A DNA stretch of 32,196 nucleotides from Saccoglossus kowalevskii (Eukaryota > Hemichordata > Enteropneusta > Harrimaniidae). The translations under genes were made by a program, and so were the position numbers. The stretch covers positions 49,394 to 81,589 of the forward strand of contig NW_003136837.1 in NCBI RefSeq assembly GCF_000003605.2. The letters are read 5' to 3'. Positions 951 to 31,962 of this stretch are shown in pieces. Numbering within the stretch: the stretch's first letter is position 1; each line of letters starts with the position of its first letter. The notes under the pieces are model-generated. The model was given only the letters and a program-made list of their open reading frames with translations. It made no database searches and had not been told where the DNA came from.

Positions 951-1090
951 TTATATAAGATTGTTAATGCTATATTCTGGAACTCCGGGTAATTTGTTCA
1001 GTCTGAAGGTTGTTTTCCCTTCAAGATCTCTCTGACTCTTCACAAAATCGGACCAGTTGGATACGCCTGCAGCTAAGAAGACTTCTGACC
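951..1090 (-). CDS. Gene A exon 5: C-terminal block and stop
   Basis: It follows acceptor AACTGCAG and encodes SEVFLAAGVSNWSDFVKSQ and the tail PGVPEYSINNLI, then TAA at 951-953. The SNWSDFVK block matches the third conserved motif of POFUT1-type enzymes. An AATAAA on the minus strand at 776-781 lies 170 bp past the stop and may be the poly(A) signal. Confidence 0.85.
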
Positions 1091-4000
1091 CTGCAGTTAA
1101 AAACGATACATTAATTCGTAGAGTTTCGAGCGACATAATTCCCGCGCGTGCGCAGATGATGACCTTCCCGCTTTAAATGATGATCTTAACATAATGATTT
1201 CTGTGGCTGTTAGCAACATACACCAAAGTACTCTCATATTTGAGAAAATACTGAATATTTTCCTTATCTATCAAGTTTTGGTTCACACGGAGTAATAAAA
1301 GATTTACCCTAAAATACTAACGTTGAATACAAAATACATTAATAATGGTAATATGCTTGATGTGTCAATTAAAATATTATATGGTTAAATCATAGACAAA
1401 TTAATGCCCAAGTAAGGCTTTCTGACATTGTATATGCGTTCGATATTATGGAAAAAACTTAACTATCAAATTCGTTTCGAATCGTTTTGCAAAACAAGTC
1501 AAGAATATATAAAAACAAGTAACATACTGTAACATATTTCTTGCTCAACCAATGACGAAAAATAAAAGTCGTTCAGTATTTCGTTATCATCGTTATCAAC
1601 AATATCTTTCCACGTGTAAATATGTCGTCGTGATATTACGCCTGATAAATGGTCGATTATTTCCTGGAAAAAAATATATTAATTAACGTGTCATGTACCA
1701 GCTTGTAAATCAAATGGTTATACAGATGTTATGATACAATACATTGGGATGCGTATGACCGTAGGTTAAGAAGCTTTTGAAATAAATTTAAGCTATGACG
1801 TAATTGTAACTAAAAGGTCAATGAATTGGCACGAAATGACGCATTACAAGGTATAGACCACTTTTGACACTTTGTTAAATTTGTACTACTGCTTTCTCGA
1901 GCATTTCAAAATACATAATACTACTTACACCATGCACACAAATTAGTAGAGCGATGATCATACTCGTTGTAGCCAAGGCTAAAGTGTTATGTCGTTGGTT
2001 ATAAGTAAGGAGTAAATGTGACCTTGACAGTAAAAACCTGACGTATCATTCCATTCGAACACAGCAATTTACACAACATTTGGAATAATTTTTCAGTAAC
2101 CTCTTTGTACATAATTTAACTAATTCTATGCCATTTGAATGTGTATTATGTATCGCAACGTGATATACATATACTCAAACATCTATATTCCAGAACTATA
2201 TCTGCATAAACAATTATATAAGGAAAAACAAAGTAGAATCGTTCCCATAGATGACATTTGTACTGCTAAACTGAGATAATCACATTCTTTCAGAACAGCA
2301 AACATGCTATCATAATGATATCTTACCTCTGACCATTCTGGGTAGGAAACGTACAAGCATGTAAGTTTCTTTTCCTTTATTATATCAGCTACTGCTTTAG
2401 TCACATTGTCTATGATAGTCGATAACTCTAACTTTACTCTAGCACATTGAACATCGAGGTGATGAAAATAACAGCTTTAATAAATTGATATATGACAATA
2501 TTATGTACAATGGGCATCTATAATAGACAGCAAGGCTAATTGGAATAACGTATACAATCTACTCGAACAATGATATAATGTGCACTATAAATACCACCAC
2601 ACCCAACTAGCCGACTACCGAAGCAACCCAGACACTAGTCACATCAAAAATTACAATCCAGCGGCTACGAATCTAATTGTGTCGGAATTTGTGTCAAAAT
2701 AGTTACCGTTTTTATAAAAGTACATTTTTAACTTGCAATATTTATAGGTGACATGTGATGCAAATCCGTTATTATTTAAATTAGTAAACATTTAGTAGAT
2801 ATATTTATATTATTTACAGGAATACAAGCACGACTAAAACAATGAGTCACACGACCAAGAGTGGTATAAATAGTAAAATTAGTGAGCATATATTTTTTTG
2901 TAAGAAAATCAATTCGTCGTTTTAGCACGTTTTTAATTAGCTAGCATTGTATAGTTCTTAAGCTGAACACACTTTCGCGTTTCCAAATACGCTGGTAAAA
3001 TACAATGAACACTTACGGCATTTCTGCTGACATGTTACGCCAATGCATTGCCACGTAAGGCTTGCCACCACAGAAACCTGAAAGAAGATGGTCCGTGACA
3101 TTTCTTATAACAGGAGATCTTTTCAGATGTATTCTAATCTCGCTCAGTAATTCCTCCGTGTTAGACATTTCTAATTTTAGTCTCTTGGGCTGAAATACAC
3201 CAAGACACTGTGTGTGACCCACAATGTCTTCAAATCTGTCAGCATTCACTGAACCAACCTGTATAACTTCTTTCTCATCAGGAAGTTTCAATTCTAATTT
3301 GGATGCATATGTTTTGTCGTTGGATCTGTTGTACATGTATGTGGTCCAAGACACTACTTTGATTTGACCTGAATTACACTTCTTTTTGAATTCGTCCATT
3401 GTTGCTAAAGGTACTATTTCTTTCAACTTTTTTACATCAAACGTGTCATTGAACTGTCTCATGTTTGCAATGCTATAACCCCGAACGAGTCCTCCATGTA
3501 GAAAGAAAGGTGTCATCACCATTGTACGATTTAACAGTTTTGCCATTGCCAATGCTTTCACTGTACATACGTATTGACTGTTCGCACCTCCTAGGCCAAC
3601 CCGGTGTATATTCAACAGAAAGCGTGCTGTGTCATGTTTCCGTATTACATCATGTTGATTTCCATCAGTGTTGAATTCTTTGGTATTTGATGAATTTGTG
3701 GATAATTTAATATTCACAGTTTTTGCTGTTGTTCCTTTTATTGGCTTGTTGACATGCATTTCCATAATTGTATTTGAACTCGGTGTTACATATCCCTTCT
3801 TGTACTGTAATATAAGATTGGATCATTAGTTCTGCTTCAACGAACTAATATAAAAATATGGTCGCCTCGCTGATTTTATGTATTTTTCATTGGCATACAG
3901 TTGATAGTACATAGCAGCAAAAGCTCCTTCATCGGTTTTTGCCACGTCAGTTGGACCTAGATTAATTTAGGGAGGGTGTGATAAATAGATGATTATGATA

Positions 4001-5721
4001 GATAGATATTTAGAGGAATGACGACAGTGACATTCAGCGTCCGGTAATATTGCTTTGCGCAAAAATACAAAACATATAAGAAAAATCTGGTTCTTTACAT
4101 AAATTAGAACCTACATTGATACCCAAGTATTAACCGAGTAGCTGCACGTAACAATATACAAAACAACAACAACGAACAAATTTAATATTCAGACACGATG
4201 TGATGTTAAAATAATGTATTGCTATGTCTTACCCATATGGAATAAGGCGTTACGGTATAAGATATTGAATATAGAGTTACGGTATATCATATCGGATATC
4301 GGATTACAATGTATAATATCTGATATCAAGTTAAAGTATATAATATATGATATCGAGTTACGTTATATGATATCGGATATCGCAATGCAGTATGTGATAT
4401 CAGATATCAATATACGGTATACTATAATCCCCTGTGTATTTAACATTAGCATTCTGAGCATTCATTCAATCCTTCACTAGAAATGTATGCTTATGAAAGC
4501 ATACAAATACTATAATACCCTTCGTTCATATTAACAATGATAATCTTAATAACAAAAAAACATGATACATACAACGGCGAGCATAATGGTAAATATGCAT
4601 TCATACAATGTTGTATGCCCACTAAACGCTCACAAGAGTAAATTAAAACTGAAAATGGAATATAAAAGTTGACTAGATATTTAATCCTTGAGTTACCAAA
4701 GTTACATGGATTGATTATGTTATTACTTGACAATTTGTATATACAAATACACCAGCCATAAGGAAAGCAATATTGAAATTAACAATGACATAAAATGTAA
4801 AAGATAGTGCATTAGTGCATGATACAATTAATTTTCATTGGCATGAATGAGTGTTATTATCATGAATAACAATACGTAGTTTCAATTTATTGCTATAATT
4901 TATGTGACATTGTGTTTACTAAAAGTGTTTGACTACTTTCCATATCCATATTTTATTTGAGCCACTTTTAATTGAGAAAACATATTTTTGTATCGATATT
5001 TGTGTTCGGAATAGACAATAAAAGCATAAAAGCAGCGAAACATACGCTGGGCGTACTAAAACTAAATTTAAACAAAGATACAGAAACCACACGTTCTCAT
5101 TTCGTAACCATGCCTCTAGAAATTCGAAAGAACTGAATAACATGTTTGATCTTTTAAGGTCGATATAATTTATCATAAAATAACATTGGAAACTCTTGCT
5201 CGCGGTAACCCATACAGTGGTTCTCAGCAAACGCTAAATTAGATGTTTGAAGGAAAAATTATCATAATATTCAGTCCCACCACTCCACACTGAACAAATC
5301 AAATGTACCCATATCATCATGCAAAAATCAAAGGCACCATTATTAAACTCATGTGTTTTAATTGATATGTGAATTTGAGAAATTTATAGTGTTTTTTCGT
5401 TGGTGCAGTGAATTATTAAACATAAAACTGTTGATGAGGTAGGTACTTGTACCTAACGAAACAGTGGAGTTTCAAAATTCATGTTGTCTTAATTACTATA
5501 TTACCGTATCCATTCGCTCTACATAAACTTTGTATGCACGCTTGATTTGGAATAATCATTGAAATTTATCTTACCTGTGGTTGAACATAATTATTTTCAT
5601 AGTTACCAAGAGATGCAAAGACGTTTTTGTTGAATTGAGTCACATGGCCCGAAGGAAGCACGACAAGGATTACCACAATTAGTGGGAATAGCAACAAAAA
5701 TAACTTCGGACACCACATCAT
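951..5721 (-). CDS. Gene A: POFUT-like (GDP-fucose protein O-fucosyltransferase family) type II membrane protein, 5 exons, intact
   Basis: Coding exons on the minus strand are 5575-5721, 3017-3804, 2327-2474, 1528-1663 and 951-1090, giving 452 residues with no internal stop. Residues about 6-24 form one hydrophobic segment after MMWCPK, suggesting a signal anchor. Residues 50-110 are a variable stem with N-glycosylation sequons. The fold-defining blocks are LLNIHRVGLGG (about 112-122), LLNRTMVMTPFFLHGG (139-154), AMHWRN (His303, Arg305) and AAGVSNWSDFVKSQRD (413-428). In POFUT1 the corresponding HLR motif binds GDP-fucose and the SSFTAFVKRERD block closes the C-terminal Rossmann-like domain; I infer a fucosyl or related transferase in the secretory pathway. 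The C-terminus (INNLI) carries no KDEL/RDEF-type ER signal. All introns have GT/AG ends and phases 0, 2, 0, 1, identical to genes B and C. Two tandem ATGs (5719-5721 and 5716-5718) could serve as start. Exon structure is firm; substrate is unknown. Confidence 0.8.
1141..1178. repeat. Solo end of the same inverted-repeat element
   Basis: This 38-bp block in intron 4 of gene A matches 30533-30570 with a few differences (both contain GCGCGTGCGCAG and end CGCTTTAAAT). The opposite end is missing; exon 5 of gene A occupies the place where it would lie. Confidence 0.5.
1528..1663 (-). CDS. Gene A exon 4
   Basis: It follows acceptor TTTCCAG and encodes EIIDHLSGVISRRHIYTW through FYFSSLVEQEICY, with donor GTATGT. 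Length is 136 bp, as in both paralogues, ending in phase 1. Confidence 0.82.
2327..2474 (-). CDS. Gene A exon 3
   Basis: It starts with one base (C) that completes the Pro codon, followed by CYFHHLDVQCARV and ending LTCLYVSYPEWSE before GTAAGA. The acceptor is TTAAAG. Its 148 bp length is identical in genes B and C. Confidence 0.8.
3017..3804 (-). CDS. Gene A exon 2: stem and N-terminal catalytic half
   Basis: The acceptor is TTATATTACAG|TAC and the donor is ATGCC|GTAAGT. The exon carries the Ser/Thr/Asn-rich stem, the GLGGANSQY block, the NRTMVMTPFF block and, at its 3' end, the HWRN motif. It ends in phase 2, inside the Pro codon of AEMP. Confidence 0.85.
3805..5574 (-). other. Gene A intron 1
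   Basis: This 1,770-bp intron holds the 27-bp minisatellite. Apart from that I see no exon, RNA gene or transposon ORF; short open frames on both strands are AT-rich and unlike any family I recognise. Confidence 0.7.
4237..4425. repeat. 27-bp minisatellite, 7 units, in gene A intron 1
   Basis: Seven consecutive 27-bp units such as ATCGGATATCGGATTACAAT followed by GTATAAT, with a GATATC palindrome in most of them. Because 27 is a multiple of three and the units lack stops in one frame, a plus-strand open frame of 88 codons runs across it, but it is intronic and not thought to be a gene. Confidence 0.85.
5575..5721 (-). CDS. Gene A exon 1: start and membrane anchor
   Basis: It encodes 49 residues beginning MMWCPKLFLLLFPLIVVILV, a hydrophobic run preceded by a single Lys. 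The donor is CAG|GTAAGA at 5574-5569, phase 0. A near copy of this exon lies at 9032-9179. Confidence 0.78.
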
Positions 5722-5911
5722 TTCAAGCAATAAATGCAAACCACAAGTTGATATACCAAGTTGAACAATATGGGTATGACGCTACACTGGTAATTATCGC
5801 TTGCATCAAGATATACAGATGATACATAAATCTGCATCTAATGCTGCCTTCTTACACATTAAATAAGATTATTCGACATTTGCCACTGCTTTTTAATTAA
5901 TTTCTTCATTA
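5722..5911 (-). promoter_or_regulatory. Upstream region of gene A, duplicated at 9180-9406
   Basis: This block directly precedes the gene A start on the minus strand and is shared with the DNA upstream of the orphan exon 1. The best-kept segment is 5851-5874, TACACATTAAATAAGATTATT, nearly identical to 9350-9373. Conservation past the exon suggests either a promoter element or simply the extent of the duplication. Confidence 0.45.
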
Positions 5912-7269
5912 ACTCGTTAGGATTAGTCTGACGCTAAAAATCAGTACTGCTTTTTTCATTATCACACATTTTATTAGGTTTATGATGAACTCTAGAACGG
6001 ATTAGTTTCTGCTACACAGATATGTGCATATGAATTAGGTAATTTGTGTAGCATTTAACTGTTTTCATCATCTACTTAGTGGATCTAAGAGATGGAGTGC
6101 CAAGCAGATCATAGGATATTTCCCTTGTTTTTTAAATACACATATATTTCGAGGACATCCAGCCAGTCAGTGTGCTTTTCTCGGTGCATAATATGCTGGT
6201 GAATCGCAACGTTTATTCTGTCTGGCTGTCTTCATTACCATGGAAACTCACATGCACAGCGTGACTCTTATGTAAATTTGCAAAGCAATTTAGTTTTATA
6301 GTGTTTAGTTTTAGATTGTTGATTGCTTAGTCTCTATTGTAATAAAACAAATATAAATATATATAAAACATATTTTTCAATTTGAGTCTGTGTCATATTT
6401 TCAAATACTTCAGGTTAAACTTCGGGATAATATGTATATCAATGGCGATATACAAATGGATAAAGCATATTCTATCTTTATAGAACAAAATCACTTAAAC
6501 TGATAACCATAAGACCAATTTTGAACTAAATACTAATGAAGATTGTCGACTCCACAAAGAGAAAAGTCTTTAACACATTTTGTATGTTTCAGTCACTCAG
6601 TCAGTATGACATTATTGAGGTAAATTAGTCCAGATGTCACCAGATAGACGTACGTGATTGGGTTTTTCATTACTATTTTTATTAAAGTACCATAGGTCGT
6701 AACACAAACAGCTAGGTGATATAAGAGGTAAAATATGCTAGCAATTATAGGTGTGACCTGTCTGGGCACGTCATTTTACTTTAATTAAAATGGCATCAGA
6801 CGCATTTCCTGGTATCAGTGAGGTTTGTTGAAGCTGTAAAAAATATCCTATTACAGTGACAGAACCTTTAGATTAAATCAAATAACAGCATATTCAAACG
6901 AACACATCACATATCAACTATGGTATCATTTGTTGAGTCAATCAGTTGGTTATGTAGCCAACAACTTAAGAACTTAAACTTCAGCAAATAGACAAAACAT
7001 TGCATACATGTGAAATACATGTTTGAATATCCATATTTTAATTATGTAGCAAATGCAAACACACTTTTTTCGTATTCACTCGAGGTATATAGTTACATTT
7101 TAGACAAGTGATTGAATAATTCACATCGCAGTAACAAATCAATATTTCATTTACAAGAAAATAAAAATACAAAAACGAGAGTTGTACACCTACATTGTAC
7201 AATCACACTACACAAAGTGTTACACAATCAAAATACATTGAAATTGAACTCTATGCGACGGTCAATATA

Positions 7270-7392
7270 AAGACACAGTCAAGAATGCAGCGTGTGAATA
7301 ATAATTTTGCGAATAATATGTGAGCACACCCGCCGTATAACCAAACCTGAGATCTGGAATAGTACGTCATAAGAGATCATTTTAGTCACAGT
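7270..7392. repeat. 123-bp direct repeat, copy 1
   Basis: It aligns without gaps to 7512-7634 with about nine mismatches by eye. The shared core includes TTTTGCGAATAATATGTGAG and AACCTGAGATCTGG. Start-to-start distance is 242 bp. Confidence 0.85.
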
Positions 7393-7511
7393 ATTATGGT
7401 GACAGTCACAAGCTAATTATATCTTCCACAATGTACGACCACTGGATGTCCACAAAATCCCGTGTTTAATAGTCTGGACAAAAGTATTTTTCAGTTAGCA
7501 TGGCAGATTTG

Positions 7512-7634
7512 AAGACACGGTCGAGAATGCAGCATGTGAATTATAATTTTGCGAATAATATGTGAGCACATCCGCCGTATAATCAAACCTGAGATCTGGC
7601 ATAATACGTCATAAGAGATTATTTTAGTCACAGT
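7512..7634. repeat. 123-bp direct repeat, copy 2
   Basis: This is the second copy of the repeat at 7270-7392 in the same orientation. The 119 bp between the copies shows only scattered similarity to the downstream flank, so it may be an eroded tandem duplication of about 242 bp or two insertions of one element. Confidence 0.85.
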
Positions 7635-9031: not shown

Positions 9032-9179
9032 CTGTGGTTGAACATCGAGTTTGTCATAGTCATCCAGAAATTTGAAAACGCCCTCGTTAAATTGAGTTAC
9101 ACGGCGTGAATAAAGTATCGCTAGAATATCCACAATTAGTGGGAATAGCAACATAAATAATTTCCAGATCCCACATCAT
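9032..9179 (-). pseudogene. Orphan copy of gene A exon 1 (frameshifted start; possible alternative first exon)
   Basis: The minus strand reads ATGATGTGG like gene A, then has one extra base before a stretch encoding WKLFMLLFPLIVDILAIL, which matches gene A KLFLLLFPLIVVILVVL. The frame stays open through VTQFNEGVFKFLDDYD to DVQPQ and a CAG|GTAAAA donor in phase 0, as in gene A (YVQPQ). The original ATG pair at 9174-9179 is out of frame, but ATG at 9152-9154 could restart the frame inside the hydrophobic segment (41 codons). No exons 2-5 follow before gene A, so it is either a dead partial duplicate or an alternative first exon that splices to 3804. Confidence 0.7.
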
Positions 9180-13295: not shown

Positions 13296-13457
13296 ATGGG
13301 TTGGTGTTGGAAACATCGGAAGCCACTGCTCTTGTTATTCTCAGTAATATCGATTGCCGTACTGATGATTTCAGAACGCCATGTGAATGGATTATTGACA
13401 CGCATATCTCCATTGATATTAATGAATGAGTACGGGAAACACCACGGTAACGCACAG
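13296..13457 (+). CDS. Gene B exon 1: start and membrane anchor
   Basis: It encodes 54 residues: MGWCWKHRKPLLLLFSVISI, the rest of the anchor (AVLMIS), and a short luminal start. The donor is CAG|GTAGGA, phase 0. The frame is open upstream, but this ATG aligns with the start of gene C (MSWYWKERK), which fixes the choice. Confidence 0.8.
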
Positions 13458-16400
13458 GTAGGATATATGTACATACCAGATATTCTAGCAGAATAGTACA
13501 TCGCTGTTCCATGGCCTAAACAAACCGCCAGTTGCAATTCAAACAATAATACATATTCTGAATGCATGGAGATAAACCCATGACTAGATTAAATAGGGTA
13601 ATAATGTTACTATAGATGCATTATGCAATATATTGGACTTTACACAGTGTATATTAAATGCACATAATATAAGTATGTTACATATTTGTACTTTGCGATT
13701 CACAACCAACCCGCCAATTTATGTTACGCAATATCTCCCCATATACTTCAACGTTTCAGAAGATGTATACCTATATACACTATAGTTACTAATATTTACT
13801 AATCACCGTCAAAAATATTAATTGAGTGGGTATTTTAATTATGATAATTTTAGGATCATTTTGATGTTTTGTAAGCAAAAATATAAATAATATATAATGG
13901 TGGTTTAATATATATTAATGTTGATAAAATATATTTTTGATAAGTTTGTCTTGGTCGTATTTCTCAAAGCCATGCAACGGTAGTCAATACTGGACTGAAA
14001 AATACCATAGTACAAAACCACTTTTACGTGTACACTCAAACAGCGCCGAGTTTTGCTTTAAATATTAATACGCCGGGCTAACCCTTCACATATTGTGTCA
14101 TGGTAGGCATCAGAAGTGAAGTGTCGGTAAAAACGCCCTGATATTTTCCTAAAAAAAACAACAGAAAGCAAGGTTTTCCAATTTCAATAAATGCATTTTG
14201 CCAGACCTCAATTGTTGTATTTGGGTCATTGCACGAATCGACAACATTCCCAGTACAACAGATTGAATGCATGAATATGTATAAACACGGAGGCAAATAG
14301 CGATGTGAGATTTGGTGAGACGATGAGCAGAATTCAATTTACGGACTAAACGTACCAGCTTACGGCCCAATAATCCAATATGGTGATTTTATATTTATCA
14401 ATGTTGATGTCGTGATGTTTGGCAAAGAATTCCATGACATCGACCAATGTAGTTTATAGTGACTGTTATTATTGTGTTGTTTTCAATTGTTGATCACACG
14501 AATGTATAATACAGACGTGTCCTTTGCCAGTGTTATTTATCATTTGGAGCCATTCATACTGTAACAGAGTGGTGCCCTTTTCACCGCTATGTATTATCTG
14601 CAGTTGACCATGCGCATGTTACAGATCACATATATATCATATGGGCGTATTCAATTCCCCTTCCAATTTTATAACCGTCAAGTTAGGCAAGTAGTGCAAC
14701 AGGTACTATAGCGCTGCATATAAAGAAAAAAAAACTTAGTAATAAATATTAATCTAATGATTGGGAGTGCAAGCTACAGCCACGAAACGGTTAATAAAAC
14801 CAGTGCATTTGCACACATTCAAATGTGAAGTGTGTTATTTCAGTGTGAATGAGAATTATATCTATCCACTTCAATATGAAAGAGATAATTCTTTTAGGAT
14901 CTTACGCTCGATATTTTTATGGTATTGTTGGAATTCAAAATCACCGAGCTTGATGACAATTTCGGATTCGACCTTCAACCTCTCCCAATCACATGTCTCC
15001 TCTATAAAACCAATTACAGACGATGTACTTCGGCCTCTCGTCCAATCATAAATGTCATTTCTGTAACCAATCAAATATGTAAAAAGTAGCCAATCAAAAC
15101 GCATGTTATTTGACCAATTATAACAATGTAACTGATAATCTTCCCGCCCAAATTCTGAATATATATAAGTAGATCATTGTCATGACTGTATTGGCCGTTT
15201 CAGTATCACTCCGCAGGTGTCAGCTCAATAATAGGTTTAGGAAATAAACAATTACTCAAGGTTCCTATCATTCATTTGACATTAGGTGAAAATGTGTTTC
15301 TTTAATTGCATCTTAAAGAATATTTATAAGTTAGAAAGACCAGAAAATAGGCAATTCTGTGATCGAATTGCATGATTGGTTTAACGTTCCCAAAGCATGC
15401 ATCGGTAGTCAATATTGGACTGAAAAATACCATAGTACATAGATCAAACTTGCAGTCTCAGACAGCGCCGAGTTTTTCGTAAAACCCATATACGCCAGGT
15501 TAACCCTTTTCGGAATGTCTCAACGTAAACATCTCAAGTAAATATTGTTATCGGCAATGTCGATAACGCCGAGACATTACGAACCAATAATCTAATATTG
15601 GGCACTGAAATCATACGTATACGTATACTCTGGTTGAGAATATGGATATTGAAATTACCATAAACATACATTTATTAATAATCTGATTTTTTTTAATTCA
15701 ATCATTCAGTCAGTGACTTGTCAGAAAATTGGGCTACATAAACCACACAAGATTGATTCATTGTCATTTTCTATAGGTTGTTTGATTGGCCGTGAAACGT
15801 CACACATATTTACCTCCCGCTTTCATTTTCAATTATGCCTCTGCGTAAAAATCTCAATATCTAAGTGTAACATATTGTGATTTTGAAACACGAGATTTAT
15901 CGCTTTGACTATTCTACTCACACCTGAATAAAATGTATTATATATCAAATGGCGCACATTAAATGTATCTTTTCATATTGTTTATTTCAGCATGGAGAAG
16001 AGTATAGAAAAGCTAATGTGGATTTAACTCATACGCCAATGACTACGACACTAAAGTATGATGTTAACAAGACAACTAAAATCATAAAAGCTATAGTTTT
16101 TGAACCATCTACAGCTGCACCGTCCCAAGACAACAGTTCCACAAATTCAAACGTAACTGCCGGCTATCGGACCCAGAATCATACTGTACAGGACAATAAT
16201 TTAACGCATTTTGTGTTGAACATTCAACGACATGGTATTGGAGGACAAAACAGTCAGTATACAGGTACGGAGAAAGTGATAGTTATGGCTCTATTGTCAA
16301 ATCGTACACTGGTGATGACACCGTTTTTTCTTCATGGAGGACATGTTCGTGGATACAGCACTGAACACATGAGACAATTCAATGACACATTTGATGTGGA

Positions 16401-18102
16401 AATATTGAACGAACTATTACCAGTTTCTACCATTGATGAATTCAAGAAACAATGTAACACAAGCCAAATGAAAATAGTGGCGTGGGACACCACTGGATAC
16501 GAATTATCAAATCGAGATACATTTACTTCAAAATTAGAAATGAAACTTCCAAAATTAGAAGAAATTATTAACGTCGACTCAGTTAACATTAGCAGATTAG
16601 AAGACATAGTCAAACACGCGCCGTGTCTCGGTGTGTATCAGTCCCGGACAGCACAACTACAAATACGTAACTTGGAAGAGTTACTCACAGAGGTTAGAAC
16701 TCATCTGAAAAGGTCTGCTGTTATAAGAAATATCACTGACACTCTTTTGACTGGTTTTTGTGTTGGCAAACCTTGCTTAGCAATGCATTGGCGTAACAAG
16801 TCGGCTGAAATGCCGTAAGTGTACATGTTTTATGGAAAAAAAATGCTTACAATGTTAGCATTGCTTAACATATGGTAGCAAAAGTATTAGAATGTTCAGA
16901 CATGCGTAAAAGTCTTTACACTGCGTGTTCAAAAGTGTTGCCGACGACTTTGAATCTCTTGTTTCAAGTACTGCGCTAAGCGTGTCGTGCAATCAATTCG
17001 TCGTTGAAGACGTTGTTTTTATACAAACAAACAGCAAACTTAATTATTGTTGTGCCGTTGCAATGAATTCCCTGGGGCTTAGTTTAAGCAATAAACGTTC
17101 TTCGGATTTACAACAAATTATAGAAAAAAATTGATTTCACGCGCTGTGCCGTGTTCTATGATTATGCCAGTTCTATTCTTAGTAAAACCTCGCAATCTTG
17201 ACAAACGCTATATGCTAAGTACGTACTTAATTGACAGTGACACAACATGTTGCAAAAAATGTCACTCGCTCACTATACTATCAGTACTAGCCCTCGAACT
17301 GATGTGAAAATGTTGTCCACAAGTTGTTTTGTTAACAGAAACATTTATATTTGATAATATAATTTGATAAGACTGTTTCTACCAATAAAAACCGAGCACG
17401 CACAAAAATAAGGTTCAGTAAATTTAAATCTAAAAATAATACTCAACAAAACGTTTTTATTTTAAAACAACTAATTTCATTTGAGGGGTTCAGTTCATAT
17501 TTATTCGTACATTGAGATACATGAATGGTATGCAAAGTCCGTGGCAGCATTAATTGACTTTGAATTTAAATCAAAACTTAGTCAGAACATGTTTATTTAA
17601 CCTTTTAACGTATTCATTTTAGTAAGACAGACAGTTTGCAGTAGTGCTTCTAATAGAACTTTCGTAAAATGTGGTATATCAGTATTGAAATACAGCTTAT
17701 CAATCATAATTAGGTACAATGGAATCAAATAGTATATATACTTTTATACACTTTCGTAATTCTCCACATGATTGTTTAATGACATGGGAAAACAGCGATT
17801 TATATTTTTCCTTTCACAAACTGTAACGTATCATTTATGTATTGATTAATCAAGGTGTTACTTTCATCATCGTATGGACCAATGTGCAAATATACAATCA
17901 GAATTATCGAAAGTCACGCCCAACGTGACTAAAGCAGTAGTTAACCTGATGAAGAAGGAGAAACTGGAGTGTCTCTATGTTGCTTGTCCCCAATGGTCAA
18001 TGGTATAGTAAATTGATTGATTGATTGACTGATTGATTGATTGACTGATTGATTGTTTGATTGAATGATTGATTGATTGATTGATTGATTATGTGGTGGA
18101 AT

Positions 18103-18173
<71 letters not shown>

Positions 18174-19141
18174 TTAGCTAGTCAATTAGCAAAATATTAA
18201 TTACATATATACTATTCATAAATTCAGTTAGTCAGTCAGTCACTAAATTTAGTTGTGTGACTATATTTGATGTTGTTGATTGCAGTTGCTGGGCAGGCAT
18301 CATAAATGATATTTTATTGTTTTAATGCAGGCCATAATCGATAATCTATCGGATGTAATACCACGAGAGAAGATTTACACATGGAAAGATCTACCGAATT
18401 ACAATAACAATGATATGTTGAGAGACTATTACTTCTCGGCATTGGTGGAGCAAGAGATATGTTACAGTATGTAGACGTTTTTACAGATAAGTAACAAATG
18501 ATATTCCACATCAGCCCACCTGACCCCCCCCCCCAACCATAAGGATGTTCAGCTTTGGAAGCTTACTGTAGCATAAGTATAATAATAGAAAATCTAAACA
18601 AATATTACTCCAATTTAATTAATCTAAATAAAAACAACCCGACTATTCTCTGGAAAACGATAAATAATTTAACAGGAAGGGCCACAGGGAATCGTGGTAG
18701 ACTGCCAAAACTACTTACCATAGACAACCCGCTTTCTCACCATGAATATTCATGACATAATAAANNNNNNNNNNNNNNNNNNNNNNNNNNNNNNNNNNNN
18801 NNNNNNNNNNNNNNTTACATATAAAGTGGTGTTGAATTACGCCATCTTCCCTACCCAGGTTATCATTGAGTATTCAAAAAAATACCCTATGGTTAACAAT
18901 TGTTCACACCTAATGTATAATGACATATCCGTATATACACATAGTGGTTATTACAATTATAGCGCTCTTTCAACCAACCTTTGTATTTTATTTTGCAGGG
19001 TCCAAAATATTTATAGCCGCTGGAATATCAAATTGGTCGAATTTCGTAAAAAACGAAAGAGATATAGAAAACAAAACAACTCTGAATATAAAAGCACTAC
19101 CCGGAATTCCAGAATATAGTATACGTGAGCTTTTGAAATAA
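13296..19141 (+). CDS. Gene B: POFUT-like (GDP-fucose protein O-fucosyltransferase family) type II membrane protein, 5 exons, intact
   Basis: Coding exons are 13296-13457, 15991-16814, 17855-18002, 18331-18466 and 18999-19141, which join to 470 residues without a stop. The N-terminus is MGWCWKHRK and then a hydrophobic run at residues 10-26, a typical type II signal anchor with basic cytosolic flank. Residues 55-125 form a Thr/Asn-rich stem with sequons (NKT, NSS, NVT, NHT). Catalytic blocks are FVLNIQRHGIGGQNSQY (about 128-144), LLSNRTLVMTPFFLHGG, AMHWRN (His320, Arg322) and AAGISNWSNFVKNERD (430-445). The last block is close to POFUT1 SSFTAFVKRERD, so a protein O-fucosyltransferase-like fold is the best guess; acceptor unknown. 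The exon 3 donor (GTATAG) is weak, and a LINE piece and a 50-N gap sit in intron 4. It is closer to gene C than to gene A (HVRGYSTEHMRQF shared). Confidence 0.8.
13965..14100. repeat. Dispersed repeat in gene B intron 1, copy 1
   Basis: It shares GGTAGTCAATA, GGACTGAAAAATACCATAGT, ACAGCGCCGAGTTTT and the phrase TACGCC-GG-TAACCCTT with 15391-15522, in the same orientation. Identity is roughly 80% by eye. Confidence 0.75.
14985..15206 (+). promoter_or_regulatory. CCAAT-cluster / TATA promoter-like block inside gene B intron 1
   Basis: Six CCAAT pentamers lie on the plus strand at 14985, 15010, 15042, 15067, 15090 and 15114. They are followed by TTCCCGCCC (15141-15149, E2F- or GC-box-like), TATATATAAG (15160-15169) and an initiator-like TCAGTAT (15200-15206). 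The order and spacing look like a real core promoter. It could drive an internal gene B transcript or be the relic promoter of an inserted element. Confidence 0.45.
15391..15522. repeat. Dispersed repeat in gene B intron 1, copy 2
   Basis: This is the second copy, about 1.43 kb from the first. It is followed at 15548-15568 by a small hairpin, GTTATCG-7 nt-CGATAAC, and at about 15583 by a phrase (CCAATAATCTAATAT) that recurs after copy 1 near 14366, so the repeat family is probably longer than the aligned core. Confidence 0.75.
15991..16814 (+). CDS. Gene B exon 2: stem and N-terminal catalytic half
   Basis: The acceptor is TTTATTTCAG|CAT, the donor ATGCC|GTAAGT. It carries the stem, GIGGQNSQY, NRTLVMTPFF and HWRNKS. 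The frame stays open 14 codons upstream of the acceptor to an ATG at 15949, allowing a second, anchor-less start if the intron is not removed. Confidence 0.87.
17855..18002 (+). CDS. Gene B exon 3
   Basis: It begins G|TGT TAC after acceptor TCAAG and encodes CYFHHRMDQCANI through LECLYVACPQWSM. The donor GTATAG departs from the usual GTAAGT, and a TGAT microsatellite starts within 10 bp of it. Confidence 0.78.
18011..18090. repeat. (TGAT)n microsatellite
   Basis: About 20 slightly interrupted TGAT units (with TGAC and TGTT variants) just after the exon 3 donor of gene B. Confidence 0.95.
18101..18175. repeat. (ATTT)n microsatellite
   Basis: About 18 pure ATTT units in intron 3 of gene B, 10 bp from the TGAT tract. 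Confidence 0.95.
18331..18466 (+). CDS. Gene B exon 4
   Basis: The acceptor is TTTAATGCAG; the product AIIDNLSDVIPREKIYTW through YYFSALVEQEICY precedes GTATGT. Length is 136 bp. Confidence 0.83.
18540..18764 (+). mobile_element. Fragment of a LINE (non-LTR retrotransposon) reverse-transcriptase ORF
   Basis: The open frame from 18555 reads NLNKYYSNLINLNKNNPTIL followed by WKTINNLTGR. This K-Y-x(n)-N-K-x-x-x-x-L-W-K-T-[IL]-N-x-L-T-G-R pattern is the linker just before the reverse-transcriptase domain in CR1/Jockey-like LINE proteins. Only this linker is present; the sequence then runs into the assembly gap, which probably hides more of the element. It lies in sense orientation in intron 4 of gene B. 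Confidence 0.65.
18765..18814. other. Assembly gap (50 N)
   Basis: Fifty N bases. Fifty is a round placeholder size, so the true length is unknown. It lies in intron 4 of gene B, next to the LINE piece. Confidence 0.98.
18999..19141 (+). CDS. Gene B exon 5: C-terminal block and stop
   Basis: The acceptor is TTTTGCAG; it encodes SKIFIAAGISNWSNFVKNER and the tail PGIPEYSIRELLK, then TAA at 19139-19141. It is one codon longer than exon 5 of genes A and C. Confidence 0.85.
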
Positions 19142-19237
19142 AAAATGCAGTGAAGTTCATATTCTTCTTTTTACATTTATTTTATTATGTACTGTGATGA
19201 ACATGTCAGTTGTCGCGAGTGTGCATGTTTGTTTGTT

Positions 19238-19241
<4 letters not shown>

Positions 19242-19312
<71 letters not shown>
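19242..19312. repeat. (TG)n microsatellite
   Basis: About 35 GT units preceded by TTTG units (19227-19241). It lies 100 bp past the gene B stop, probably in its 3' UTR. Confidence 0.97.
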
Positions 19313-19315
<3 letters not shown>

Positions 19316-19409
19316 TGAAGCAAAGGGGGAAATAGCTGGGGCCTTCAAACTTTATCTCATATGTCTTCATGTGATTTTCGCAATGTTATATTATGATGTA
19401 AATATTCAC

Positions 19410-22035: not shown

Positions 22036-22139
22036 TTTTTAATCGCCAAAACGTGAACTGGAGATATAATAACGCATTATGTTTTGTGGGTGATATACAT
22101 ACATATCAGTAAATAATTTGAACGTAAGGTACAATAGAC

Positions 22140-25070: not shown

Positions 25071-25206
25071 TGTATTTTTGTATATTCAGGTTATGGTAGA
25101 TAAAACACAAGCAGGTGTTACTTTAAATAATTGAATCTTCTTTGTATTTTTGTTTTTATATTCAAGTTATGGTAAATAAAACATCAGCCGGAGTTACTCA
25201 AAATAA
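25071..25206. repeat. 72-bp-period imperfect tandem duplication
   Basis: 25071-25130 and 25143-25206 share TGTATTTTTG, ATATTCA-GTTATGGTA, ATAAAACA and GTTACT...AAATAAT in order. Confidence 0.75.
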
Positions 25207-25823
25207 TACTCATACTGGTCTGGGATGTTTAGTTGCATGCAATCTATGAACAGGCTGCAGACATTTTATGAGTTTTCGCATATTATGCTGCACAATAATG
25301 ACCACCCTCATCTTCAACTCAACAGGTATGTTTATTGTATTTTCGTTTGTATGTCCTTTGATGCATATCAAAGCTCATGCTCATTGTCTAAACAGAGTGC
25401 ATAAAATGAGTTTACATTGAGATACGTATAATATTGCTTCTATTAACACTGGGTTAATGCATTGGGTTAGAAACAAACATTCAAATTTACTGTGTGTATT
25501 TATGTCCAATTTGAAAGCAAACAACAATTAACAAATAATTTCCTTTGCTATTTTCAGATTCACTCATGGGAAAAATAAACACTGATATAATCTTCTTCAT
25601 CAGTTTCATCAGGATGTAAAGCTTGGGTCGTTATATGAATGGGAGTTGAATCAGTAGAGGTCTGTCATTTTCACGCTCATCAATGATGTCACCCATTTTA
25701 ATTCCTCTTCTTTAATAGATACATCACAGGTATAATTGTTGGTGGTGTTCGTGTACGTGTATGCTATAAAGGTCTTGGAGGCAAAGATTGAATACATGAG
25801 TATTTGCACCATTCCTATAAACC

Positions 25824-25837
25824 ACGCCCTCTAGCGG
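25824..25837 (-). promoter_or_regulatory. CTCF-like motif
   Basis: The minus strand reads CCGCTAGAGGGCGT, which fits the bilaterian CTCF core CCASYAGRKGGCRS except at positions 3 and 14. Confidence 0.3.
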
Positions 25838-26091
25838 TAAAAACTTCTGTAGTGTAAATGGGACAGATCTTTCATATCACACAAACTGTTTTTGAGGGTT
25901 TACTTCATTTTAAAGGTAGACCGACTACACAAATAAACACAGTTGTTGATTATATTGCTTTCATTCATTCACGTTATTATTACATCACACGAGTGTCGTA
26001 TTGTCGTATTGACATTCCAGACACAGGTGCTTGTGATCGACCGAGCCCTGTCGCACGCCAGGATAGCCCATTAAATTGCCATTTGATAGAA

Positions 26092-26111
26092 ACATGGCCG
26101 CACGGCCATGT
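26092..26111. repeat. Perfect 9-bp inverted repeat
   Basis: ACATGGCCG-CA-CGGCCATGT. It is short and symmetrical; function unknown. Confidence 0.8.
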
Positions 26112-27341
26112 CATGTAGCCCAAATAGAATATGGCTTCTGTGGCAAAATTGCATGTGTCAGCACTAGTACATGTAATTTGTACATAACACAGATCAGGAG
26201 AGACAACAATTTAATGTCCGGAATTGTCGCCTGGCACAGAAACATCTTAAAATAACTGACACAATTACACGATGATGTGTTATTGGAATAACAGTTATTT
26301 TTATTAAACCTTAGTCAGCTAAATTGTTTACACAGGTAAAGTATTACGTTTTTGAGACGAACAGACATGCAGTATACAGCTGGTGGTTTAATTACAGCGC
26401 ACCGAACTGTGATTAATATGCAGTATTTGCTCGATGTGCTACAATACTTTGTAAATAGATGCATACCAGTTAAATTGCATTATTCCATGACGACAACACC
26501 TTACCGTTGAATTACATTAAATATTAACAAATATCTGTACAATCGGTAAATCATGAGCTACTAGAAGTGGTAGGGATTGGGGTTGGTTCTAGCTCATGTC
26601 AATGTCAAGTTCAGCGGTGTGTAAACAGATGTAAACACAGTTTTGATCAGTGTATAAATATACTATAACATAATTATTGTAATAATAAAATAAAACATTA
26701 TTTAGGTTTTATTCGATATAGTTCCATCCATAATGAACAATCATTTTCATTCGTACTACGTAAAAGTAAATACAAGTTGACGTCTGTTCTAATTAATAAT
26801 TATTTAACCTGCAATAATTTGTGATATTTTTCGCCTTTATTACACCTTAACACACGTGTGCGAGTCAGCTGCATACCGGTATATATTGTTAACCTATAAT
26901 CGTTAAAGAACATGCATGCGTCGGCAACCATTCACATTGATTATGCTTTTAATATAAATTGTAATAAAAGTAATATTTAAATATATTATTTCTCTGTATG
27001 TTGGTTCAGGTAAAGATACAATTGACGTATACTAGCGCCCTAGCATTTACACACTCGCACATTAACATTGTTTACACTGTCTACGATAAGTATAATGTAT
27101 AAGAAATAGTACTAGGTAATTGTAGTTCTTGGTTTTGATATTAAGTATAAATAAGCAGGGGTTTCGGGCAAAGTATCCTATTTTAATGATATTTATGAAT
27201 AAATATGCAAATTTGTTTTTATTCATATGAAAATATGCACAGATGTATGTACCAGCTGTATTTATATTCCACATCTGTAATCCTAGCATACACCGCCATA
27301 ATGCGTGACGTATCACTCATATTGGTTATGCAAAGTTCGAT

Positions 27342-27497
27342 ATGTCTTGGTACTGGAAAGAACGTAAAGTTCTTCTATTGATGTGTTCGATAATTGTTCT
27401 TATTGTACTTGTGATTTCTGAATACTACATGACTCCATCAGCCCCATCTATCGTCGCATATATAAATGAATATGAAAACGAGGATACTCCAACACGG
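27342..27497 (+). pseudogene. Gene C exon 1: start and membrane anchor
   Basis: 52 codons, open, with hydrophobic residues 10-26 and basic KERK flank; donor CGG|GTAAGA, phase 0. If translation stops at the TGA in exon 2, the product is a short anchor-plus-stem peptide of about 110 residues. Confidence 0.75.
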
Positions 27498-28319
27498 GTA
27501 AGAGTAATATTTAACAATATTAATACTATAAAGTTCTCATACACTTATCTGGCGTAACCAGGTCAGGTTTGCATTCATACAGATATTAGCTTGTTAATGT
27601 GTTCATACAATATACTGAACTGTAGTTCTATTATATTGAATTCAAGCATTATGATAACGGTTTTATTTAAAGTAGTATATATGTACTATATTGTACATAA
27701 TTATACCCATATGACGTTTATATATGCGGCACGGGTTACACTAGTCCACTGCGCTGGGAATACCAATTGTTTTGATGAAGTACTATATGGGTGAACTTTC
27801 AATGTATAATGTGTCTTGGTAAGGACGGGGAGTATAGGGGGAATAGACCCAAATAAGATCGTGAAATAGGTTGTTATAACATAGTACACGCTCACACAAT
27901 ATCTTTTAAAATAGGCGAAAGCTGTTATCAATACGTATACTGCATAGAAAATAGTGATAATAGGCCTTGATAAATATTTAATATAATAATATATCCTTTC
28001 GTAATGATAGATATGAATAGTGATGGTTTTGTGTTTCTATTCATACTATTGAAAAGTGAAAGTTTGTTCTGATTCTATTGAATATTACAAAAAAAAAAAC
28101 ACCTTCTATCCTTATGTATATATATTCATCATCGCCTGACACATTACGAGAAATCACTATAAGATTTAGCTACATGAAAAAATAGGCAGATTCTTCCAAT
28201 GCTTTATTATTGTACAGTCGTTGTTGGCCGCAAATGAACCATGACAGTCAAGATAATGTTCTAACAAAATGTCTGACTCACGTATTTGTAATTTCCTGTA
28301 TTATTCCTGTATGTTGCAG

Positions 28320-29098
28320 CAACGATCGAAGCCAGTTACTAATAGTTTTGATGTAATCAATACAACAACATCCGCCATGACAGATGTTAACACAGACATC
28401 GAGATTACAATGGAAACTTCTCATCTAAAATTATCCACAACAAAGTCAAACATCACAAAATATAATCGAAATCATACAAACACACACAATTTATGAAGAT
28501 TTCTGTTGAACATTCAAAGACATAGCTCCGGTGGACAGAACAGTCAGTACAAAGGTTTTGAGAAAGCCATACTTTTAGCTCTTCTGTCCAATCGTACACT
28601 AGTGATGACACCATTTTTTCTTCATGGAGGACATGTCCGCGGTTACAGCACTGAACATATGAGACAATTTAGTGACACATTTGATGTGAGCAAGTTGAAA
28701 AAACTGTTACCTTTAGCAACTATTGAAGAATTTAAAGAAAACTGTAATTCAGGTCAAACTAAAGTAGTGGCGTGGGACAGCACTGGATACAAAGGTGCTA
28801 ATAAAAACACTTTCACCTCCATATTAGGAATGCCACTTCCGGGTGAGGTTATTAAAATCGATGTATTGAACATAAGCAGCCTGGAAGAGGTAGTCTTACA
28901 CTCGCCATGCCTTGGGATATATAAGATGCTGGACTCTAAGTTACAGATAACAAACCAGGACGTATTACTCACCAAGATCAGAACACATCTGAAGAGGTCC
29001 GCAGTTATAAGGAATGTCACTAATGATCTTCTAACTAGTTTCTGTGGTGGTAGACCTTACTTGGCGATGCATTGGCGTAATAAGTCAGCAGAAATGCC
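28320..29098 (+). pseudogene. Gene C exon 2 with in-frame TGA
   Basis: The acceptor is ATGTTGCAG|CAA and the donor ATGCC|GTAAGT. TGA at 28494-28496 follows NTHNL and is immediately followed in the same frame by RFLLNIQRH, so the break is a point change and not a frameshift. The remaining 200 codons are open. Confidence 0.83.
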
Positions 29099-29638
29099 GT
29101 AAGTTCTTGTATGTAGTAAGTTATGACGTTTACACGACCTAGAAGTTACACGATTTAAGTGTTATGAACACGGGAATTTGTTTTGATTTCTTGGTCATTA
29201 TTGATATAGAAATGAATAATTGATTATGCTTAATCGTAAACATACCATTATATTCAATGTTTTTACGTATCACAGAATGATATCAAATACAATCAAATTA
29301 TTATCAATTGTTGTGAATTAGACATTGAATAATGAAACTAGGAGAAGATTTGCATACAAAATAGAACACCAAAATTGGATTAGAAAGAGTGTGGTGGGGA
29401 TGCACGCCTTTCTACTTATCTTTAGTTTTAGAGGATTCTTCGTACAGTATTTCAGTTTCATGAAAATAGTTTATTTGGAAGAAATGATAAATAGGAAGAT
29501 TGTCATAACATAAGTATACAGATTGCAGCTAAACATATTAATACAACATAAACAATCGTAACCGGTCCTGTGTTTGCGATCCATTGTTGATATTCACAGA
29601 AGTGGGGTATATGTGTCTCTATTTACAATTGCATGGGG

Positions 29639-29667
29639 GAATTCAAACGGATGCACCGTTTGAATTC
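29639..29667. repeat. Perfect 12-bp hairpin in gene C intron 2
   Basis: GAATTCAAACGG-ATGCA-CCGTTTGAATTC, a perfect 12-bp stem with a 5-nt loop. Confidence 0.9.
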
Positions 29668-29937
29668 GTACCATACCGTACACAAATTGTCTCATATGAA
29701 TGAATAGACAGTGAACGTTACTATAATTAGTCAAACCGTGTTACGACATTAAATACAATCAGGTCGTACAGCTAACGGACAACCCCCAAAATAATGATAT
29801 TTGTGAAATGTGCCAGTAATATGTAATACAGCAATATATACTAATACATATTCAAAATTTAAGCATAGCGTGAGGTGATGTATGATTTCACACATATACA
29901 AACACGATGTTGAATCTTAGTTATTTTTATATTGAAG

Positions 29938-30085
29938 ATGTTTTTTCCAACACCGTGGCATTACTTGCAATGAAATAAAATCAGCATTATCAAAGGTTAT
30001 GCATCACGTGACTAAAGCAGTAGCTGACGTCATGAAAAAATATAAACTGGAGTGTTTATATGTTGCCTGTCCATAATGGTCGTTG
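29938..30085 (+). pseudogene. Gene C exon 3 with in-frame TAA
   Basis: It begins A|TGT TTT TTC after ATTGAAG and encodes CFFQHRGITCNEI through LECLYVACP, then TAA at 30074-30076, then WSL before GTAAGC. Compared with CCCCAATGG in gene B, one C-to-T change makes the stop. Confidence 0.8.
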
Positions 30086-30152
30086 GTAAGCTAATTTAAA
30101 ATAAAAAAAAAAGATTATTTGACATATGGCATTATAAATACTCTGCTGTTGG

Positions 30153-30166
30153 CCACTAGATGGCGC
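30153..30166 (+). promoter_or_regulatory. CTCF-like motif in gene C intron 3
   Basis: CCACTAGATGGCGC matches the CTCF core CCASYAGRKGGCRS at every position. It lies in the 152-bp intron 3 of pseudogene C. Confidence 0.45.
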
Positions 30167-30237
30167 TATGGTTTACGGGTGTACAGTGATTGTACACTCA
30201 TATAAATACTGAATGAATGTGTTTGTGGTCTTTACAG

Positions 30238-30373
30238 GAAATTATTGAATATCTATCTGATGTTATACCACGACAGCGTATTTATACATGGAGTGATATT
30301 GTGAATGGAAATAATAATGATATATTGAAGGACTATTATTTTTCCTCATTGGTGGAGCAGGAAATATGTTACA
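30238..30373 (+). pseudogene. Gene C exon 4
   Basis: Acceptor TCTTTACAG; it encodes EIIEYLSDVIPRQRIYTW through YYFSSLVEQEICY, donor GTACGT; 136 bp and open. Confidence 0.82.
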
Positions 30374-30405
30374 GTACGTTAAAACTTGTAAATGTTATAT
30401 TTTTA

Positions 30406-30571
30406 TTTTAAAGCGGGGGAGTCGAGTGGCATGCGTCAGGTAGCCATAGCGTGTCCTTGTTTACAAACAAGCATCTTCCCATGAGCATTTGCGTTTTAAG
30501 CGTGTGTTGTTATCGTCGTTTGGGACTGTATTCTCGCGCGTGCGCAGGTGACGACCCCTCCGCTTTAAATA
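30406..30571. mobile_element. Short TTAA-flanked inverted-repeat element (MITE-like), copy 2
   Basis: The left end TTTTAAAGCGGGGGAGTCG and the right end GACGACCCCTCCGCTTTAAA are imperfect inverted repeats with TTAA at both borders, in intron 4 of gene C. The centre (TTGTTTACAAACAAGC) resembles that of copy 1 at 209-346. About 165 bp, no ORF. Confidence 0.55.
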
Positions 30572-31009
30572 TACTAATTAAAAAAATGAAGAAATACAAA
30601 GCAACATACAGTTGTGTATCTGTGTATAGAATTTGGGTTTTTCTTTTACCAGTTGTACAGTACAATCTGGCATTACACTGCCACTGTAATTGCATTCAAA
30701 AAAATGTGATCGACAATTCATGATTTACTGGAGTCGTACACACGTGTCGTGTTTTTTTTAACACAGACAGCCAGCTATGACGCATACAACGTTGTAGCTA
30801 TTGCTCCTGACAATTTACTACTCATGGAGGAAAGTACACTCTATGTCTACATGTATTAACGTTGTGTTTGGAAGGTAGTATTACTTGTAGTATAACACTT
30901 TAATTGTGTTCTGTAATTAAACGTTTGCAGTCACGATAAACAAGGCAAACGTTATCTCTAATAATAAAGAAAAAAACATGTAAGGCTGCTTTTATCGTGA
31001 ACGACCCTC

Positions 31010-31160
31010 ATGAGCGAATTTAGGGGGGCCGAGGGGGCCGCGGCCCCCTATTTTTTTTAACAACCAACAGGGCTTCACGCCATCGGCGCTCGCGAACTTT
31101 TCCTTCGGCCAACTAATCGCCCCCCCCTATTCCAGAATCCTAGAACCACCCCTGACCCTC
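31010..31160 (-). mobile_element. GC-rich transposon-derived fragment
   Basis: Read on the minus strand, the right part gives TCAGGGGTGGTTCTAGGATT and then a G run. From memory this resembles CAGGGGCGGATCCAGGATTT, a terminal motif common in invertebrate repeats. The left part contains a perfect 16-bp palindrome, GGGGGCCGCGGCCCCC (31035-31050). Family not assigned. Confidence 0.4.
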
Positions 31161-31822
31161 TACGGAAAAAGTATTGTAATTTCTCATAATCTGGTACACG
31201 AAGCTGATTTAAAGAATCTTGGTCACGTGCAATTGAATAAAGCACAATAAACCCCCTCCCAGTTTATGCTAATCACACCGACATTTCACTCTTCGACAAA
31301 TAACGTCTAAATGTAGAACGAATCTCGCTAATAAACCGTGTTCGCTGGCGAGTTCACAGACGCGAATTCGCATATTGAAATGGAAAAGTCCACGTATGGA
31401 CAGAGTACGGCGTGCGTAGCTGACGGTTTGGACCCGTGCAGATCGCTGGTGAAATCGATTCATCACAACATAGAGCACACAATTTGAATACGACAACGGG
31501 GTTGACAGATGAATATATTACAAACTTTATTTTCCTTGTCAATAACACGTTGAAAATAGGTTAAATATCTACTGTTGTGTATGGACATTTTTGCCAGGCT
31601 GTTGCACGCCGCGCCACAGCGCTTGCCATTAATACAATTCATTATCTAAGCTTCGGGGTTTATGAAGATGTCATTATATTATATCTGTCGTTCACACATT
31701 ATAATGTTGATTGGTCATACAAACGCTAAAACTGCCAGTTGTAGACTAGAGATTTACATCGAACCTCCGTATTTATATTTGTCAATGCTTAAATAAATAT
31801 TCATATTTTATTTAATTTGCAG
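31161..31822. other. Rest of gene C intron 4
   Basis: A CpG-richer patch at about 31300-31450 (ACGCGAATTCGC, GTACGGCGTGCG) covers short minus-strand frames that I do not recognise. No exon is seen. Confidence 0.4.
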
Positions 31823-31962
31823 GGTCTTCGATCTTCTTGTCTGCTGGATCGTCGAACTGGTCTATTTTCGTAAAAAATGAGAGAGATACAGAACGAAAGA
31901 CTACGATGCTCATCAATAAACTCCCTGGTATTCCACAATACAACATTACATTGCTTTTATAA
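31823..31962 (+). pseudogene. Gene C exon 5
   Basis: Acceptor AATTTGCAG; it encodes SSIFLSAGSSNWSIFVKNER and the tail PGIPQYNITLLL, then TAA at 31960-31962; 140 bp, open. Confidence 0.82.

Follow-up and report, generated by a model that had tools for sequence, protein, structure and literature searches.

In animals, protein O-fucosylation is commonly viewed as the work of a few enzymes of the endoplasmic reticulum (ER) with fixed, folded targets. According to the parts of the literature cited here and below, the mammalian protein O-fucosyltransferases (POFUTs) reside in the ER, POFUT1 with a KDEL-like end, and the fucosyltransferases (FUTs) that modify glycans reside in the Golgi (PMC11990869). 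In CePOFUT1, activity depends critically on Asn43, Arg240 and Trp245: the exchanges N43A and W245A lower it 25- and 12.5-fold, respectively, R240A and R240K impair it, and F357A shows a dissociation constant for GDP of 26.9 versus 0.35 µM (PMC3180450). Here, we analyze a stretch of 32,196 nucleotides from the hemichordate Saccoglossus kowalevskii (contig NW_003136837.1, positions 49,394 to 81,589 of the forward strand; hereafter the window), which holds three five-exon sets related to POFUT1 (GT65) and POFUT2 (GT68), together with the family to which they belong across the genome.

Two further systems invite comparison. The putative O-fucosyltransferases of plants comprise, in Arabidopsis, ESMERALDA1 (ESMD1) and 38 others, that is, 39 PF10250 proteins with a transmembrane (TM) segment, among which ESMD1 has been seen in the Golgi (PMC4958334). 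Set beside them by description, the hemichordate family shares the PF10250 domain, the TM segment, the large number of members and, if our reading holds, the Golgi location, but belongs to another kingdom. Echinoderm genomes, in turn, encode 79 GT10 fucosyltransferases on average (PMC11468063), likewise a large fucosyltransferase set in marine deuterostomes, but of another GT family. For the family itself, we found no recognizable description in the titles, abstract openings and passages among the matches listed from the open-licence PMC literature.

A large PF10250 family in the acorn worm genome

A sequence-only reading of the window had proposed a local cluster of POFUT-like genes that would match the PF10250 profile and fall outside canonical POFUT1. 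Both expectations were borne out. The spliced proteins of genes A and B score 61.8 and 61.3 bits against a curated Pfam cut-off of 31.5, and align over positions 9-325 and 8-325 of the 326 positions of the profile (~1e-16). Gene A alone, compared with solved structures, finds POFUT1 at an E-value of 0.75 with unrelated chains close behind. A profile of 11 family members retrieves from the PDB sequences four POFUT1 (1.6e-10 to 4.2e-6) and four POFUT2 entries (8.9e-7 to 1.2e-6) and, up to an E-value of 10, nothing beyond these; FUT8 (GT23), which we take to belong to the same GT-B superfamily, was not matched.

We searched the genome (572.1 Mb, 4830 contigs) with the PF10250 profile and scored the best candidates, so that all copy counts are lower bounds. 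This gave at least 37 matches; the same search in 14 control genomes gave none. When exons are scored singly, 29 of the 37 exceed the curated cut-off, two of them only together with neighbors in frame. At least 27 are loci of the exon-2 type, distributed over 16 contigs and three of them in the window, and two are intact, intronless single-exon relatives of 431-432 amino acids (aa; L001 on contig C2990 and L002 on C93). The remaining eight belong to POFUT1-type genes: five on C3896 (L029), which matches human POFUT1 at 4e-80, and three on C2358 and C1 (L030, L031), POFUT1-like as judged by eye. We also note that these are two distinct sequences, of which the one on C3896 reaches the C-terminal motif and the other lies in pieces on C2358 and C1; POFUT1 itself may thus be duplicated in this genome.

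All 27 exon-2 loci were inspected, the three of the window as well as further sets of 20 and four. In 26 of them, exon 2 reads through without a stop, the exception being copy C of the window. Exons downstream of it could be located in 19 of the 20 further copies (none for L019; exon 3 weak in L021 and L026; L027 without exon 5) and, by alignment, in three of the second set (none for L037 in the stretch inspected), and, spliced with the expected intron phases, 18 of the 20, all but L019 and L027, give a full catalytic frame free of stops. The proposed expansion is therefore confirmed by at least 27 exon-2 loci and two intronless relatives, but its spread over 16 contigs shows that it is not local alone.

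The family has also diverged widely. Over the catalytic part, pairwise identities among 25 members range from 22 to 68%, with the single exception of L021 and L026, which share 89% and lie on the same contig, C1757, one with four copies. Four loci outside this comparison (L036-L039) have best protein matches of 42-62%. The ratio of non-synonymous to synonymous substitution rates (dN/dS), a rough estimate for most pairs, lies between 0.10 and 0.33 in all 11 pairs tested, from L001/L002 (0.10, at a saturated dS of 2.9) to L021/L026 (0.33, at a dS of 0.21), which is the sole unsaturated pair and stems from the latest duplication in the family. These values are signs of purifying selection, to which the open frames, kept despite protein identities of 22-68%, are an independent pointer.

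In an unrooted tree of the 25 members with POFUT1 and POFUT2 fragments, for which the exons of L029 were put together by eye, all family rows lie on one side of a branch with support 99/99 and POFUT1 and POFUT2 on the other, where the three POFUT1 rows group together (94/91). A placement of the family with POFUT1 is thereby ruled out. The copies of the window form one group with L012, a locus on another contig, both in this tree (98/94) and in a tree of exon 2 (95/95; 29 rows, L028 shortened to 59 residues), so that they are not clearly each other's nearest kin. That B and C are closest and A is inverted, as first read, agrees with the orientations and with the identities (B-C 68%, A-B 61%, A-C 59%), but the trees do not settle whether B and C are sisters. 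Among the seven multi-copy contigs in the exon-2 tree, the copies of C1757, C3177 and C2350 form pure groups, those of C2856 (the contig of the window), C4796 and C4613 group with rows from single-copy contigs intermixed, and those of C4449 do not group; this contig-wise grouping points to tandem duplication and subsequent spread. In the tree with POFUT1 and POFUT2, L001 and L002 group with L018, a locus of the five-exon type (100/95), and look like working retrocopies.

A shared intron, sought as a sign of common descent with POFUT1, was not found among the nearest introns, which differ in phase and place: close to the HxR motif, L029 has a phase 0 intron, whereas that of the family is of phase 2 and lies a few codons further on. 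Horizontal transfer from bacteria or viruses was also considered, and single scans of prokaryotes and viruses with one and two peptide patterns returned no relatives, which argues weakly against it.

Active site and membrane anchor

For the active site, we aligned 25 rows and scored 23, excluding the partial L019 and L027; residues are numbered as in gene A. Gly122, Asn124, His303, Arg305, Asp393, Ser417, Trp419 and Arg427 are present in all 23 rows and Trp304 in 22, and Arg142, Pro148-Phe149, Cys192, Cys249, Cys322 and Glu401-Gln402 are each kept in 22 or 23. By profile alignment, Arg305 corresponds to CePOFUT1 Arg240 and Trp419 to Phe357; the arginine of the HxR motif and the C-terminal serine and arginine of the donor site are thus kept in alignment with POFUT1. 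With POFUT1, the family further shares the PF10250 fold and the C-terminal motif S-x-aromatic...FVK.xR, whereas most members read HWRN[KR][ST]xE where POFUT1 reads HLRxGxDW. With POFUT2 it shares the PF10250 superfamily and a C-terminal pattern, D...(I/V)xQ...C...FIG...S, that aligns at ~1e-6, but this alignment is confined to the C-lobe and a part of the N-lobe, and POFUT2 lies beyond the 99/99 branch. The catalytic glutamate of human POFUT2, E54, lies in an N-terminal loop. This loop falls outside all of our alignments, and no acidic residue was seen by eye beside the GGxN motif of the family, a motif of a type that the plant putative O-fucosyltransferases presumably carry as well.

Genes A and B have the same layout, a short tail, a hydrophobic stretch and a lumenal catalytic domain, with a stem, rich in Ser and Thr as judged by eye, following the anchor. 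The 19-residue hydropathy peak is 2.82 from residue 7 in A and 1.89 from residue 9 in B, and L001 and L002 likewise begin with a hydrophobic stretch (by eye). Neither protein of the window ends in a KDEL-like tail, A ending in SINNLI and B in RELLK, and in this, as in being anchored, the family differs from POFUT1. Over their whole length, A and B contain eight and 15 N-glycosylation sequons, respectively. The combination of N-terminal anchors with the lack of a KDEL-like tail suggests that the members of the family may be Golgi enzymes.

Gene models in the window

We rebuilt the gene models directly from the window sequence (Table 1). The three five-exon sets span positions 951-5721 on the minus strand and 13296-19141 and 27342-31962 on the plus strand. 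The five exons of A and of B splice to intact proteins of 452 and 470 aa, intron 4 of B being interrupted by a gap of 50 N. The end of the window is the end of contig C2856 (81,589 bp), so the gene cluster may extend further.

Table 1. Exons of the three five-exon sets and the orphan exon 1, in window positions
Feature	Positions	Strand	Length and content	Evidence
Gene A exon 1	5575..5721	-	147 bp; short cytoplasmic tail and transmembrane anchor	spliced model, hydropathy
Gene A exon 2	3017..3804	-	788 bp; stem and first half of PF10250 domain, HWR motif terminal	
Gene A exon 3	2327..2474	-	148 bp	spliced model, exon profile
Gene A exon 4	1528..1663	-	136 bp	spliced model, exon profile
Gene A exon 5	951..1090	-	140 bp including stop	spliced model, exon profile
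Orphan exon 1	9032..9176	-	mostly covered by repeat D5, which is 74% like A exon 1	
Gene B exon 1	13296..13457	+	162 bp	
Gene B exon 2	15991..16814	+	824 bp	
Gene B exon 3	17855..18002	+	148 bp	exon profile
Gene B exon 4	18331..18466	+	136 bp	exon profile
Gene B exon 5	18999..19141	+	143 bp including stop	
Copy C exon 1	27342..27497	+	156 bp	
Copy C exon 2	28320..29098	+	779 bp; in-frame TGA 28494-28496	
Copy C exon 3	29938..30085	+	148 bp; in-frame TAA 30074-30076	
Copy C exon 4	30238..30373	+	136 bp	
Copy C exon 5	31823..31962	+	140 bp including stop	

All 12 introns of A, B and C follow the GT/AG rule, and the spliced models agree with the identical phases (0, 2, 0, 1) first read for the three copies. 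The fixed lengths of 148 and 136 bp read for exons 3 and 4 apply to A, B and C, but elsewhere in the genome exon 3 measures 139-184 bp and exon 4 130-148 bp. These latter lengths come from approximate models of paralogs that vary, built by a script that favors the expected phases and leaves rough ends (for exon 3 of A it gave 112 bp, where 148 is true). The phases were also tested free of frame in the 20 further copies, with splice sites picked by score alone. Here, agreement with the window was 19/19 for donor 3, acceptor 4 and donor 4 alike, 17/18 for acceptor 5, 17/20 for donor 2 and, in a wide search window, 13/19 for acceptor 3, against a random expectation of one third; as the copies are kin, binomial values are a guide only. 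The shared phases of introns 2-4 across the genome exceed chance. Exon 1 was sought in the copies of the window.

Copy C is the reason why the claim of three full copies stands only in part: all five exons are present in A, B and C, but C carries two in-frame stops. Otherwise, its model keeps all splice sites, shows no frame shift and retains the 13 family-invariant positions inspected. As dN/dS is 0.20 for B-C versus 0.28 for A-B, rough values at a dS of 1.2-1.4, copy C seems to have been under selection through most of its life, and the stops represent either a recent breakage or a peculiarity of this individual or assembly. In B and C, the repeat pair D8 (17892-18014 and 29975-30097) takes in a portion of exon 3 and runs into the beginning of intron 3; the exon 3 stop of C lies within it.

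An orphan exon 1 is indeed present, 3.3 kb upstream of A exon 1 on the same strand and terminating in CAG|GTAAAA, but from the first ATG its frame is shifted by one base. Since the frame opened by an inner ATG reaches the GT in phase 0, this exon could either serve A as an alternative first exon or be a remnant. Between it and A exon 1 lies a direct repeat of 128 bp (7265-7392 and 7507-7634, 242 bp apart, 91% identical), and intron 1 of A contains a minisatellite of about six ATATC-rich 27-bp units (4222-4410). Simple repeats of the ATTG/ATTT and TG types adjoin the end of B exon 3 (18012-18175) and the stop codon of B (19226-19317).

Of the 87 open reading frames of the window, 10 of the longer ones, lying outside the modeled exons or overlapping their edges, were compared with Pfam in search of further genes, and none matched a family above cut-off; a sub-threshold match to DUF6320 (E 0.0027) lies in a frame overlapping B exon 1. 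An Rfam search of the window gave nothing above the gathering score, and a tRNA search gave none.

The same genome also includes a mitochondrial contig of 17,037 bp (C4830; L032-L035), whose right end carries near-repeats of some 190 bp (L035). Aligned with bovine COX1, nine ATA codons of its COX1 fall on Ile (5), Val (3), Leu (1) and Met (0), and TGA on Trp in seven of nine; the ATA codons of ND4 are mixed (Ile 2, Leu 2, Ser 2, Met 1). ATA probably encodes Ile. AAA falls on Lys at the one site in COX1 and, in ND4, on Lys once, Gln once and Asn three times, which by itself does not favor Lys; we read AAA as Lys because, by eye, it occurs at sites of ND1 and COX2 that we take to be strongly conserved Lys positions. 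The orientation of COX1 is opposite to that of ND1 and COX2, and ND2 lies ahead of ND1 (all but COX1 and ND4 identified by eye). The cited part of an earlier study gives AAA as Lys, an inverted COX1 and a transposed ND1 or ND2 for S. kowalevskii, and AUA as Ile in the three enteropneusts then known (PMC3121625). The mitochondrial code and gene order thus point to a Saccoglossus-like acorn worm, and an echinoderm or lancelet origin was set aside given the readings of ATA as Ile and of AAA as Lys.

Predicted function and competing explanations

We consider it rather probable that these proteins are type II, Golgi-resident GDP-fucose transferases of the GT-B fold that act on secreted or cell-surface glycans or proteins, beside POFUT1 and POFUT2. 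This reading builds on the PF10250 domain, the homology to POFUTs, the conserved residues, the copy number, the anchors of A and B and the signs of selection. A branch beside POFUT1 and POFUT2 would have grown by tandem duplication with its intron phases kept, and retrocopying, it seems, also added members. GDP-fucose would most likely be bound by the arginine of HxR together with the C-terminal S-x-W...R motif, and its fucose handed to glycans or proteins that are secreted or lie on the cell surface, in a metal-free transfer in which the arginine aids the breaking of the donor bond, as proposed for CePOFUT1. Details of the fold, Golgi site, donor, mechanism and class of acceptor are all predicted from sequence.

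Several observations weigh against this reading. In the profile alignment, the position of POFUT1 Trp245 is occupied by Glu310 in 20 of the 23 rows and by Phe in three (L001, L002, L018), and, where gene A alone is aligned with POFUT1, that of Arg40 by Leu, so that the donor pocket differs from that of POFUT1. The invariant Asn of the family can be matched to POFUT1 Asn43/46 only to within one residue, as two alignments are one column off. The tree has no root, and in it the two POFUT2 rows are 39-44% filled, long-branched and joined in a way that the program flagged. The anchor is assumed in the copies outside the window other than L001 and L002, and 10 of the 11 pairs tested have a dS above 1.2, which makes most dN/dS values rough. 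Finally, the PF10250 domain leaves the donor unfixed, plant GT106 rhamnosyltransferases being said to have it.

The same replacements bear on the competing explanations. The family could use the fold with a donor other than GDP-fucose, for which the Glu at the Trp245 position speaks, as does the example of the GT106 enzymes, said to use UDP-rhamnose; yet the positions of Arg240 and Phe357, which matter for GDP binding in CePOFUT1, hold Arg and the aromatic Trp in 23 of 23 rows, and the family profile matches POFUTs only, so that we regard another donor as quite improbable. Catalytically inactive proteins of the Golgi, fucose-binding or chaperone-like, would explain why a residue critical in CePOFUT1 was replaced, but hardly why the HxR arginine and other donor-site positions remained invariant in 23 of 23 rows, which is unexpected in dead enzymes; such a role appears very improbable to us. 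Somewhat better placed, although still unlikely, is the notion of extra protein O-fucosyltransferases in the ER that act on folded Cys-rich domains, with every paralog adapted to a domain type of its own. The search of solved structures yielded relatives only in POFUT1 and POFUT2, the identities between paralogs, mostly 22-68%, are compatible with differing protein surfaces, and POFUT2 likewise lacks a KDEL-like tail in the cited part of its description (PMC11990869), but the transmembrane anchors of A and B and the replaced Trp245 and Arg40 positions do not fit such enzymes well.

The count itself could have been inflated by haplotype copies, assembly duplicates or decaying pseudogenes, as the two stops in C, the lack of downstream exons for L019 and L037 in the stretch inspected and that of exon 5 in L027 might suggest. 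This is largely refuted and retains a very small probability: haplotype and assembly duplication are ruled out by the identities, as the closest of the 25 members compared share 89% on one and the same contig and all other pairs 68% or less, and decay is at odds with an exon 2 that is open in 26 of 27 loci and with the range of dN/dS.

Going beyond the preferred reading of Golgi GDP-fucose transferases, it is possible, if rather doubtful, that about 29 such anchored enzymes constitute a hemichordate POFUT branch of its own that builds a fucose-rich coat of mucus glycans or fucan-like chains, with acceptors differing by subclade. A coat-building set of this kind would resemble, in the number of its members and in their layout, the putative plant O-fucosyltransferases with a TM segment.

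The underlying event, the tandem expansion of an enzyme family, is ordinary; its subject, a large, anchored POFUT-like branch apart from POFUT1 and POFUT2, is uncommon. If our reading is true, some 29 anchored relatives beside the POFUT1-type genes would represent a second use of this enzyme fold in at least one animal. The diverged paralogs would then offer a natural set for studying how the choice of acceptor evolves on one donor site, and the members of the family would be candidate enzymes for the mucus glycans of acorn worms.

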